Source of the DNA: an uncultured Lachnospiraceae bacterium
GTDB taxonomy: Bacteria; Bacillota; Clostridia; Lachnospirales; Lachnospiraceae
Assembly: GCA_947567595.1 (NCBI GenBank)
Contig: CANOMQ010000004.1
Coordinates: 1-64,000 of the forward strand
Direction of reading: 5' to 3'
Length of the DNA stretch: 64,000 nucleotides
A program made the position numbers and the translations under genes. Each line of letters opens with the position of its first letter. Positions within the stretch are counted from its first letter, which is position 1. The notes under the pieces are model-generated. The model worked only from the letters and a program-made list of their open reading frames with translations, searched no databases and was not told the origin of the DNA. Of this stretch, positions 31,674 to 38,563 are shown piece by piece.

Positions 31674-33722
31674 ATGGAGGTAAAAGTGGAAAGAAAGTCG
31701 AACATTTCAGTGTGGCAGATTGGTCTTTTTGAAGGCTTTGACAAGGATATCATGGTAATGCAGAGGGACGAGGAGGAGGTCTTTGACGATGCAATCCATG
31801 TGTTTTTTGAGAAGGAATACTATGACGCGTATGTGGCAAAGGCGGTAAAATATGGAAGTCATGCCTATGCGTATCATGAAGATAAGCTTGGCGAGGTGGT
31901 CAATCAGATTTTTGAGGAAGGGCTTCCCGGACTTGTCATTCACATGAACACCAGTACGGACGAAAGCGTGCCCAAAAACCAGCTTTGCGATGAGAAATAT
32001 ATTTCCGCAAAGGAGCTGATTGGCTACCGGGACGCGGCGCAGAGCTATCATCTTTTATACATGACGTCCATTGCCCACTGTACCAAGGAGGAGACGGTTG
32101 CCGCGCTTTGGACGAAATATGTCTATATCATCGGACAGCTTCCCGATGCGAGGAAAAAGCCCGCGGAAGGGGAAAAGCAGGTCTTTGAGCTGATGACGAT
32201 GAAGCGCAAAAAGGATAACAGCAATGCGACTGCCGAGGATTTTGACTATGAGTCGTTAAAGGTGTTTCTGACGGCGGAGAGTGCGATGCGCTATAATCCC
32301 GATAAAAAGCCGGTCGGCAAGTATAAGCTGTCCATGCTCTCGCAGCTTGTGCGCGGAAAGCTGCATGTGATTATCGAGCCGCACCGGGCGTACTGGCTTG
32401 AGTATGATCCTGCCAGCATTGACATCGTGCCGTATCTGGACATTCCCAAATATAATGAGGAGATGGTCATTGAGCGCATACAGGCATATGATAAAATGGA
32501 ACGGATTTTTATTTTGTTAAATCCGCTTCACAGTGATTACAGGGTGTCGCTTGGCAATCCTTTTTTGATGAAGCATGATGAGAAGCACATTGCGATGTAT
32601 CTTTTTGAACGGCATGAGGACGCGGTCAATTACGTGCTCCAGAACCAAAACCTGCTGCCGGTGTTTGACGCGACCTTTCCGATTGGCGTTCTTGAGGGTA
32701 AGGAGCATCTTTACCGCCTCAAAACAGTGGTCACGCTTGCCGCAAAGCTTGGCGTGACGACGGTGTGCCTTGACGCGGACACAAACCATGCCATCGCCTG
32801 TGATATCGGATATTTCAAAAAAGCGGCAGGCTACACGAAGCCCATCGAGGATTTGCTGGTGCGGGCTGATTTGGAAAAGGTCATGCGTGAGGAAAACGGA
32901 GAAAAAAAATACCGCCTTCCGATTGTGCCGTTTTATGACAGGCATAATGACTACGATATCAGCGAGGAGAGAAGGGCGGAGCTTGTTTCCCACTTGGATA
33001 ATGATTTTGACAACGGATTTGCATATATGGCGCTATTGGACGTACCCGAGCTGATGGTGATGGCAAGTGAGGCGGCAAAGCGCTTTGAGAAGGCAAGAAA
33101 CGAGAATGACGAGGAAGAAAAGCTCTTTTACAACCAGCTTTTAACGAGAATGATGCTTGTGCTGACCGAGGCGCTTTGTGAGAAGGCGTATATTTATACG
33201 TTGAGGAACGAGGACGGCAGCTTCGCACTGCGCAATAACATGGTGTACCTTGTCGTGACAAACCGCTTTGAGGCAGGAAGAAGGGGCGAGGGAAGGCTCA
33301 CACCCGCCGGAGTAGACAATCCGCAGTTTATGGAAAAGCTCTGCGAGGCGAACCGGGCGGCAGCGCTGACGGACGGGCCAAATATCGTCTGCATTGTGGA
33401 TACCCTGCTGATGAGCGAGGCGGCAAAGCAGTGGAAAAAAACGGAGGCTTTGCGGGAGGAGCTTTTAATCTACATGACACAGGGGTGCGGACTGTCCTAT
33501 GCCGAGGCGCTTCGCTCTTATAAGCGGCTGAAATCGGACAATGATATTTTTGTGGAATTTGTCTCGGCTGTGCGAAACGGGGAATATCCGCCGATGGCGA
33601 TGCTTGAGGTTGAGGGATATACGGCAAAGACGCTTGCAGAGTCGTATGGGTTTAACATGCTGCAGGCTTATGACGCGGTTCTTTCGCTTAAGGAGGATAA
33701 AACCTTTTTAGAAAAATACTAA
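31674..33722 (+). CDS. Hypothetical 682-residue cytoplasmic protein
   Basis: I do not recognise this large soluble protein. It has no signal peptide or membrane segment. Two blocks, about residues 1-100 and 270-420 (including IFILLNPLHSDYRVSLGNPF and LPVFDATFPIGVLE), recall SseB-like folds only loosely. The C-terminal part is helical and charged (ASEAAKRFEKARNENDEEEK), and ends in MLEVEGYTAKTLAESYGFNM, resembling a small ubiquitin- or HTH-like module. The start may be the ATG at 31674 (GGAG ten bases upstream) or a GTG at 31686 with GGAGG five bases upstream. Confidence 0.6.
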   Translation: MEVKVERKSNISVWQIGLFEGFDKDIMVMQRDEEEVFDDAIHVFFEKEYYDAYVAKAVKYGSHAYAYHEDKLGEVVNQIFEEGLPGLVIHMNTSTDESVPKNQLCDEKYISAKELIGYRDAAQSYHLLYMTSIAHCTKEETVAALWTKYVYIIGQLPDARKKPAEGEKQVFELMTMKRKKDNSNATAEDFDYESLKVFLTAESAMRYNPDKKPVGKYKLSMLSQLVRGKLHVIIEPHRAYWLEYDPASIDIVPYLDIPKYNEEMVIERIQAYDKMERIFILLNPLHSDYRVSLGNPFLMKHDEKHIAMYLFERHEDAVNYVLQNQNLLPVFDATFPIGVLEGKEHLYRLKTVVTLAAKLGVTTVCLDADTNHAIACDIGYFKKAAGYTKPIEDLLVRADLEKVMREENGEKKYRLPIVPFYDRHNDYDISEERRAELVSHLDNDFDNGFAYMALLDVPELMVMASEAAKRFEKARNENDEEEKLFYNQLLTRMMLVLTEALCEKAYIYTLRNEDGSFALRNNMVYLVVTNRFEAGRRGEGRLTPAGVDNPQFMEKLCEANRAAALTDGPNIVCIVDTLLMSEAAKQWKKTEALREELLIYMTQGCGLSYAEALRSYKRLKSDNDIFVEFVSAVRNGEYPPMAMLEVEGYTAKTLAESYGFNMLQAYDAVLSLKEDKTFLEKY

Positions 33723-36058: not shown

Positions 36059-36103
36059 AAATGATTAAAAATAATCAATAAAAATGATTATTTTTAATCA
36101 TTT
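36059..36103. repeat. 19-bp perfect inverted repeat made of two TGATTA-N4-TAATCA dyads
   Basis: The arms (36059-36077 and 36085-36103) are exact inverse copies around seven bases. Each arm is itself a dyad: TGATTA-AAAA-TAATCA at 36062-36077 and TGATTA-TTTT-TAATCA at 36085-36100, centred 23 bp apart. No GC-rich stem or T tract follows, so this looks more like tandem operators than a terminator. It lies 93 bp before the DUF5713 start. Confidence 0.85.
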
Positions 36104-36195
36104 TCAAATTCTGACAGGAATGATATGATAGACGAAATAAAGGAAGTAAGGCGATTTGATAACTATATGGGCTTTGGAGAACAGGAGGTAAACAC

Positions 36196-36522
36196 ATGAA
36201 GAAATTTGATGCATCGTATGAATTTTTGAAGGAAATGTACAGTGACGATTATTTTCCCGATTTTCTAGTAGACAAAATAAAAGCGGAGCTGGAAAAGGTC
36301 GTTGTTTTTTTGGAGACCGGGGTTACGGACGGGAAGCAGATTCAGGAAAAGTTTGACGAAATGACGATTGCGATTAATGATTTGCAGGAGGAGTTTGAGG
36401 AGAACGACAGCGAAGTTGAGACCTCGGCGCGGGAAAGCATTGCGGCAGACGTGATTGAAATTTTGAACTGGTTCGACGTGGACATTGATGTGGAGGAGGC
36501 GCTTGGGGAGCGGGACTGGTAA
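36196..36522 (+). CDS. DUF5713 family protein
   Basis: The 108-residue protein MKKFDASYEFLKEMYSDDYF followed by FPDFLVDKIKAELEKV is typical of the DUF5713 family. It is acidic, all-helical and cytoplasmic, and ends NWFDVDIDVEEALGERDW. Function is unknown. A strong AGGAGGT precedes the ATG. It lies between the tandem-dyad element and the LeuA-AraC gene, 43 bp upstream of the latter, so they may share a transcript. Confidence 0.8.
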   Translation: MKKFDASYEFLKEMYSDDYFPDFLVDKIKAELEKVVVFLETGVTDGKQIQEKFDEMTIAINDLQEEFEENDSEVETSARESIAADVIEILNWFDVDIDVEEALGERDW

Positions 36523-36565: not shown

Positions 36566-38563
36566 ATGAAAAATGCAGCAAAATATGAAAAAACCTATTT
36601 TTTACCGCCCGTCTGTACTTATGACTGGGTGAAAAAGGACGCGGTGACGGCGCCGCCCGTATGGTGCTCGGTGGATTTGCGGGACGGCAATCAGGCATTG
36701 ATTGAGCCGATGAGCTTGGAGGAAAAGCTGGAGTTTTTCCAGCTTTTGGTGGATATTGGATTCAAGGAAATCGAGGTCGGTTTTCCGGCGGCGTCGGAGA
36801 CAGAGTATGAGTTTATGCGCGCCTTAATCGAGCGCGACATGATACCCGACGACGTGACGGTACAGGTGCTTACGCAGGCGCGGGAGCATATCATCAAAAA
36901 GACCTTTGAGGCGGTAAAGGGCGCGCCGCACGCGGTGGTACATCTTTACAATTCGACATCGGTCGCGCAGCGCGAACAGGTGTTTAAAAAGAGCAAGGAG
37001 GAAATCAAGCAGATTGCGGTGGAGGGTGCAAAGCTGTTGAAGCAGCTTGCCGACGAAACGCAGGGCAGCTTTTCGTTTGAATACAGTCCCGAGAGCTTTC
37101 ACGGGACGGAGGTGGATTATGCGGTGGAGGTGTGCAGCGCGGTGCTTGACGTCTGGCAGCCGACTGCCGAAAACAAGGCGATTATCAATATCCCGACGAC
37201 CGTTGAAAACGCCATGCCGCATGTGTTTGCCACACAATTGGAGTACATTCACAAAAATTTAAAATACCGTGACGCCGTGACACTTTCCGTTCACCCGCAC
37301 AATGACAGAGGGTGCGGCGTGGCGACGGCAGAGCTTGCGCTTCTTGCGGGTGCAGACCGTATCGAGGGGACGTTGTTTGGAAACGGCGAGCGCACGGGTA
37401 ATGTGGATATTGTCACGCTTGCGATGAACATGTTTTCGCATGGCGTGGATCCGAAGCTGGACTTTTCCAATATGGTGGAAATCCGGGAAAAATATGAATG
37501 CTTTACGCGTATGCATGTACATGAGCGTCAGCCGTATGCGGGCGATTTGGTGTTTACGGCATTTTCAGGCTCGCATCAGGACGCGATTGCAAAGGGAATG
37601 CAGTGGCGTGAGGAGAAAAAGAGCGAGAAGTGGTTTGTGCCGTATCTGCCGGTTGATCCAAAGGACGTGGGCAGGAATTACGAGGCGGACGTTATCCGTA
37701 TCAACAGCCAGTCGGGCAAGGGCGGCGTGAACTATATATTGAAGCAGAACTTTGGCATTTCGCTTCCCGAGGCAATGCGCGAGGAGGTCGGCTATCTTGT
37801 AAAGGACGTGTCCGACATCGAGCACAAGGAGCTTTCGCCGCAGTGGGTGTACGATATTTTTGTGGAAAATTATGTGGACAATACGCCGTTTTTCCAAATC
37901 AACGAGTGCCATTTTAAGCAGATTGACGGCATTATGGCGGAGGCGGTCATTACCTGCGGCGATAAAAAGACGACGGTTGACGCAAACGGAAACGGGCGTC
38001 TTGACGCGGTGAGCAACACCATCAAGCAGTATTTCGGCATCAGCTACCAGCTCTCCAACTACGAGGAGCACGCGCTGACAATGGGATCGTCCTCAAAGGC
38101 GATTGCGTATGTCTGCGTTACCTGCAAGGGGGAAAAATACTGGGGCGCGGGAATGGACGACGACATTATCAAGGCGTCAATCCATGCACTTTGCGTCAGC
38201 GTCAACAAGCTCCCTGCGGTGCAGAGCAACGACGCGTGTCAGGACGAGCGCATGATGGCGATTATGAATTATATACAGGCAAATTATCAGGGGATTGCAT
38301 TGAGCGATATTGCGGCGCATTTCCATTTGTCCGAGCCGTATCTGAGCAAGTATATCCATGATAAGTCGGGCAAGACGTTTGGCGATTTGCTGATTAACAT
38401 TCGTATGAAAAAGGCAAAGACACTGCTCCGAAACGGCAATATGACGGTGGAGAACGTGGCGATGGCGGTAGGATATCCGAACGTGGAGCATTTTAACCGC
38501 GTGTTCAAGAAAAAGATGGGAATGACGCCTGTCCAGTACCGAAAGGGCGAGAAGCAGGCATGA
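36566..38563 (+). CDS. leuA: 2-isopropylmalate synthase fused to an AraC-type DNA-binding domain
   Basis: The 665-residue protein starts with a complete LeuA of the yeast/proteobacterial long type. The HMGL-like TIM barrel contains [11 protein letters not shown] (residues 35-45), HPHNDRG (243-249) and GNGERTGN. The LeuA allosteric dimer domain spans about 430-550 ([17 protein letters not shown]). From about residue 560 the same frame runs into an AraC/XylS HTH domain: [20 protein letters not shown], then [15 protein letters not shown] and [19 protein letters not shown]. The reaction is acetyl-CoA plus 2-oxoisovalerate to 2-isopropylmalate, the first leucine step. Fusion to a transcription factor suggests leucine-responsive DNA binding. 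No frameshift or internal stop is seen. GGAGG precedes the start. Confidence 0.92.

Follow-up and report, generated by a model that had tools for sequence, protein, structure and literature searches.

A LeuA enzyme joined in frame to an AraC-type DNA-binding domain in Lachnospiraceae, with a conserved operator-like element before its gene

The stretch of DNA analysed here (the window, 64,000 nucleotides at the start of contig CANOMQ010000004.1 of an uncultured Lachnospiraceae bacterium) contains a gene, leuA-araC, in which a 2-isopropylmalate synthase (LeuA) sequence continues in frame into an AraC-type DNA-binding domain. Upstream of it lie a promoter and an operator-like element:

36062..36102, + strand: AT-rich operator-like element of 41 bp (PWM score 55.4, the site being within the training set)
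36101..36106, + strand: −35 position, TTTTCA, 4/6 consensus by sequence, overlapped by the end of the element
36121..36129, + strand: extended −10 by sequence, with TG at 36121 (19 bp from the element end) and TATGAT at 36124-36129
36196..36522, + strand: DUF5713 gene (Pfam PF18977), between the element and leuA-araC
36566..38563, + strand: leuA-araC fusion gene, open from ATG to TGA, 665 aa
36662..37489, + strand: LeuA catalytic barrel (HMGL-like), residues 33-308 (Pfam, 248.9 bits)
37544..37744, + strand: IPMS_D2 post-catalytic domain, residues 327-393 (Pfam, 118.2 bits)
37835..38212, + strand: LeuA_dimer domain, residues 424-549 (Pfam, 80.7 bits), leucine-binding in the Mycobacterium tuberculosis enzyme
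38213..38248, + strand: short linker, residues 550-561, variable by dN/dS
38249..38545, + strand: AraC-type DNA-binding domain, residues 562-660 (Pfam; seven helices in the structure model)

The initial annotation had described a full LeuA with the motifs DLRDGNQ and HPHNDRG and a dimer domain, followed in frame by a two-HTH AraC domain. Both motifs are present and the Pfam domains agree, each match exceeding its own gathering score. The AraC two-HTH domain of about 100 residues, which the same annotation expected a domain search to detect, is matched by HTH_18 (residues 582-660, 75.9 bits) and HTH_AraC (residues 621-660, 59.5 bits), and the frame is open throughout 38220-38250, where a stop or frameshift had been considered. 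Among NCBIfam models, PRK03739.1 (NF002991, 2-isopropylmalate synthase) matches the fusion protein with 801 bits (cut-off 455), while the equivalog leuA_yeast (TIGR00970) is narrowly missed (669.7, cut-off 697.4) and several of the AraC-type models listed match it, all under their cut-offs. Annotation by the best family score alone would label the protein a plain 2-isopropylmalate synthase.

M. tuberculosis LeuA (1sr9, 3fig) aligns to the fusion protein with 511 bits over residues 27-517. Its residues D81, H285, H287 and H379, which we take to be functional, correspond in this alignment to D40, H243, H245 and H337 of the fusion. R80, E218 and Y410, given as functional residues of the M. tuberculosis enzyme in PMC10464499, correspond to R39, E176 and Y360. 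These catalytic and relay residues (R39, D40, E176, H243, H245, H337 and Y360) are invariant in 32 aligned fusions, as is G475-N476-G477 of the LeuA_dimer domain, and we predict from sequence that the fusion protein is a working 2-isopropylmalate synthase. The top Foldseek matches to the structure model are M. tuberculosis LeuA chains, and its seven C-terminal helices follow the order found in AraC; because the mean pLDDT is 77 and the pTM 0.54, the placement of the domains in the model is uncertain. The next-best hit of the LeuA part in the rest of the window's genome reaches only 28% identity over 106 residues (contig C39). The frame concerned (L170:6939-8378) is HMGL-like, adjoins an isocitrate dehydrogenase-like frame and possibly encodes a Re-type citrate synthase; having no LeuA_dimer match, it was rejected as a second LeuA.

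We searched 194 genomes, including the window's own, scoring the best six candidates per genome and counting a match at E <= 1e-60. At least 142 genomes hold a LeuA match, and the LeuA-AraC architecture, for which a search across relatives had been proposed, was found in at least 49, spread over 18 genera of a single family. Among the matches listed, the fusion occurs in 32 of the 38 genomes of the window's genus and in 17 genomes from 17 other genera of that family, and is absent from the 75 genomes of other families. Forty-eight of the 49 fusions listed are in one piece and one is spread over two contigs (G006); one of the 49 genomes has the junction on a contig that carries residues 375-665 only. 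Since a junction of the same kind occurs in at least 48 other genomes, it is not a local sequencing error, and we rejected a frameshift or assembly artefact as its source. No second LeuA at E <= 1e-60 is found among the matches listed in 41 of the 49 fusion genomes, and the other eight hold an additional unfused copy of ∼50% identity. A scan of named genomes, whose loci overlap heavily with the genomes of this search, returned 80 loci, of which 77 are fused, one is split and two lack a readable LeuA start (L179, L223). Carriers include Roseburia inulinivorans DSM 16841, Eubacterium ramulus and the Lachnospiraceae isolates COE1, A4, 3-1 and P6B14. Four metagenome-assembled loci titled as other phyla (L211, L222, L229, L239) we take as presumed mislabelled bins.

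In a tree of the LeuA part (144 sequences), one group (support 0.307) comprises 101 fused leaves and one split leaf (L087). Going back to the ancestor shared by every fused leaf (support 0.899) brings in two more leaves, the fused L086 and the unfused L089. The latter is without the upstream element and possibly represents a joint loss of AraC domain and element. As the fused leaves form essentially one clade, the fusion is old and probably of a single origin. In the two split forms, L087 (genome G098) and L088 (genome G115), a separate AraC frame lies directly behind the leuA stop. L088 falls outside the group of all fused leaves and has eight consecutive A at its junction, which would fit slippage, a genuine split or a sequencing error alike.

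The HTH domain is under purifying selection. Median dN/dS was 0.029 for the catalytic domain, 0.035 for the dimer domain, 0.044 for the HTH domain and 0.33 for the linker, taken from 14 sequences with 28-47 usable pairs of 91 and with dS mostly near saturation. The mean frequency of the commonest residue over 32 fusions follows the same order (catalytic 0.88, dimer 0.76, HTH 0.75, linker 0.46), the HTH domain being about as conserved as the dimer domain, the predicted leucine-binding part.

The surroundings of the gene are less constant. An AlkD-like DNA alkylation repair gene (PF08713, 38560-39372) overlaps the leuA-araC stop codon (ATGA) in the window and lies near the fusion in 24 of 30 close loci and in none of 73 others; the DUF5713 gene is near leuA-araC in 4 of the 30. 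We looked for ten genes of the window and of leuCD around the 73 fused loci that do not belong to the first set and found none (positive control 73/73), the reach being no more than 1.9 kb on the upstream side and 3.5 kb on the downstream side and much less at some loci. The gene and its element therefore persist together while their surroundings change, and shared neighbours were rejected as the cause of the conserved element. Elsewhere in the window, a frame of 682 aa at 31674-33722 gives no Pfam hit at E <= 0.001.

The element consists of two copies of TTAAA-N4-ATCA in direct repeat, at 36065-36077 and 36088-36100 (23 bp apart), the second with the sequence TTATTTTTAATCA. The same AT-rich element is conserved in the upstream regions of close relatives. 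We built a PWM from 28 loci, 25 belonging to the window's genus and 3 to other genera, and scanned up to 1500 bases before each gene, keeping identical proteins once and excluding loci with fewer than 300 bases upstream (L021 and L240 of 102 fused loci, L266 of 40 filed as unfused). We chose the cut-off of 7 after seeing single-letter shuffles (10 per locus), whose maximum was 6.7. At this cut-off all 27 distinct training loci have the element, as do both split loci and 68 of the 73 fused loci outside the training set (59 of them scoring at least 20). None of the 39 loci classed as unfused (where the highest score is −2.9) and none of 141 shuffled loci reaches the cut-off. Seven of those 39 loci are second copies in fusion-holding genomes. 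Two more, L106 and L278, could be cut fusions, because their contigs end before an AraC domain could begin; among the clade members listed, they sit in or beside otherwise unfused clades.

Five of the 73 fused test loci fall short of this cut-off. The element of L011 lies just upstream of the searched stretch (57.4 in L177), and that of L078, L080, L085 and L255 is weak or diverged. Only two of the 42 loci without an in-frame AraC domain, the split loci L087 and L088, have an AraC frame downstream (checked up to 2.5 kb, with three of the 42 offering at most 312 bases). Both carry the element, and the element therefore accompanies the AraC domain even when the frames separate. As the fused loci form essentially one clade, few independent events stand behind the association of element and AraC domain. 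Covariation between HTH residues and operator bases gave 16 of the top 40 pairs from 69 of 335 columns, a mild enrichment that is confounded by phylogeny.

The position of the element relative to the promoter is fixed at most sites. In 76 of 95 sites the extended −10 has its TG at a distance of exactly 19 bp behind the element end, and the −10 hexamer has at least 4/6 consensus bases in 85 of 95. The −35 hexamer is poor, with at least 5/6 in 2 sites, 4/6 in 32 (the window included) and at most 3/6 in 61. Class II activators of the AraC type use a poor −35 that is overlapped by the proximal repeat, at a fixed phase to an extended −10. By analogy, the element and promoter would have the geometry used by AraC-type activators, and what appears to be an AraC/XylS-type direct-repeat site is present beside the −35 position in a fixed arrangement. 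Because the spacing between element and extended −10 is fixed, contact with RNA polymerase is favoured over simple blocking.

With two mismatches allowed for each, the palindromic core and the long direct repeat were found in the window's genome only at the element before leuA-araC. The search for the long direct repeat covered 116 of the 194 genomes, and most matches in them precede leuA-araC. Among the other sites, the fusion genome G023 has an orphan element-like site (L171:2177-2217, score 22.6), a common weak site (4.4-4.9) lies before a small gene in G002, G005 and G012, and the distant genomes G131 and G160 have a single direct-repeat match each. Two further matches stand at contig ends where no gene is assignable (G005:C192, G027:C114). 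On its own, the short palindromic core (one mismatch) is also present at places other than leuA-araC in several relatives. The core-only loci of this kind that we inspected have no upstream repeat, and at least six further such places lie outside the fetched loci. Weaker targets elsewhere are possible.

The element and a T-box are both absent from the leuC regions of four genomes (the window's, G010, G028 and G035), and control of leuCD by the same element was rejected for these regions. The leuC region of the window's genome (L169:8721-12243, contig C37), located in a search that covered 60 of the 194 genomes, has two tandem leuD-leuC pairs, named from family matches and sequence, one of which perhaps serves another pathway with the same chemistry. 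A TwoAYGGAY RNA motif is located at L176:171-336, near the leuC region of G028.

A T-box leader (RF00230) precedes the fusion in 13 of 20 close loci, between operator and gene in the loci compared (e.g. L009, L010, L023, L027 and L177), with a specifier read as CUC, leucine. At the gathering score no T-box is found anywhere in the window, nor in six of the other 19 close loci. Because of the T-box, leucine control in the 13 loci does not need the AraC domain. Some species would accordingly stack RNA- and protein-based control on one transcript, and the window's lineage, as far as seen, appears to retain only the protein-based control. Upstream of the fusion in L025, what is left of a T-box between promoter and gene seems, by eye, to be its antiterminator end alone, as in a leader that is decaying.

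We consider it rather probable that LeuA-AraC is both a working enzyme and an activator of its own gene through the element, probably under leucine control. We infer each part of the regulatory role from sequence: DNA binding by the AraC domain, activation as opposed to repression, and leucine as the signal. The LeuA homodimer would display two AraC-type domains, which would bind the direct repeat, whose copies are 23 bp apart and which extends into the −35 region of the promoter that drives leuA-araC. From this position, LeuA-AraC may recruit RNA polymerase to an extended −10 promoter that is without a good −35. Leucine at the dimer domain, ∼12 residues before the HTH domain, would most likely lower both catalysis and activation. 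It is a more tentative proposal, which we place slightly short of even, that leucine at the dimer domain sets the catalytic rate together with activation of the own promoter, so that one protein would hold the whole feedback loop and replace the leucine T-box in the window's lineage. The earlier suggestion that the enzyme serves the AraC domain as its sensor fits the invariant residues, the conservation of the HTH domain and the element; the likely target, the gene's own promoter, had not been foreseen.

The main rival, which we hold to be unlikely, keeps the same protein and site and reverses the sign: leucine-bound LeuA-AraC would cover the −35 and shut its own promoter, with leucine as corepressor. 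The element does extend into the −35 position, the 32 of 95 sites with four of six −35 bases may have some intrinsic promoter strength, and end-product repression fits a biosynthetic gene. However, a −35 of at least 5/6 is present in only 2 of 95 sites, the fixed spacing in 76 of 95 is expected for contact with RNA polymerase, and AraC-family proteins are mostly activators. Many AraC regulators also act beyond their own gene, and the AraC domain might mainly control other genes (ilv, leuCD, leuB or unrelated ones), with autoregulation secondary. The second site in G023 and the weak common sites in G002, G005 and G012 would agree with such a wider role, but the single place of the pattern in the window's genome and the four leuC regions without the element argue against it, and we regard it as improbable.

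Activation of its own gene by LeuA-AraC also has to be weighed against two readings that uncouple the fused domain from the element. A different regulator might bind the element, which would then merely mark the promoter, and the fused AraC domain would have another role. The link between element and domain is a predicted one and the fusions are common to one clade, as such a reading would allow; the direct repeat nevertheless ends at the −35, as AraC-type activators use it, and the element accompanies an AraC domain in cis, fused or in a neighbouring frame, and is found in none of the 39 loci filed as unfused, which makes this reading very improbable. That the AraC domain is vestigial, or a tail with a structural role only, we find scarcely credible: drift can keep fusions within a clade, but the dN/dS of the HTH domain is near that of the enzyme and far from that of the linker, the model has the seven helices, and the operator is conserved.

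Proteins that join catalysis and DNA binding have precedents. Ada of E. coli and the AdaA-type proteins carry an AraC-type HTH and a chemically active enzyme in one chain and activate their own operon; Ada is a DNA-repair methyltransferase whose signal is its own methylation, whereas LeuA-AraC has a biosynthetic enzyme with an allosteric amino-acid domain. PutA, BirA and NadR are metabolic enzymes with a DNA-binding domain that regulate genes of their own pathway, mostly as repressors and with folds other than AraC, and none of them is a leucine enzyme with an AraC domain. Metabolic enzymes that also act as transcription factors are called trigger enzymes, the subject of PMC8249747. LeuA-AraC would be one of them, with catalysis and gene regulation both predicted for one protein. 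M. tuberculosis LeuA is the same type of enzyme and shares the leucine-binding C-terminal domain, but stops after the dimer domain and has no DNA-binding domain. AraC and RhaS have the two-HTH domain of the fusion and bind direct-repeat sites adjoining the −35. Their sensor is a small ligand-binding domain, whereas that of the fusion is a whole enzyme, and their repeat spacing is ∼21 bp, as compared to 23 bp before leuA-araC. T-box leaders act by RNA-based attenuation according to aminoacylation state, in contrast to the protein-based control proposed for the fusion. In the open-licence literature, searched by title and the start of the abstract, we found no description of LeuA-AraC, which is weak evidence, nor of an allosteric enzyme of amino-acid biosynthesis that bears an AraC domain and has an operator directed at its own gene. 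Transcription factors that are also enzymes were known before; what is new here is the conserved 41-bp element before leuA-araC.

If the proposed mechanism is true, an allosteric enzyme has turned into a transcription factor without a separate sensor, and gut bacteria such as Roseburia inulinivorans, Eubacterium ramulus and many Lachnospiraceae possess a compact natural leucine switch. The element, the promoter and the boundaries of the fusion are defined precisely enough for direct testing in vitro. The presence of fused, split and unfused forms in one family makes the origin of such a regulator experimentally accessible. In this large group of gut bacteria an enzyme of leucine synthesis has a gene-switch domain as its tail, and the conserved element before its gene suggests that the enzyme may directly control its own amount.
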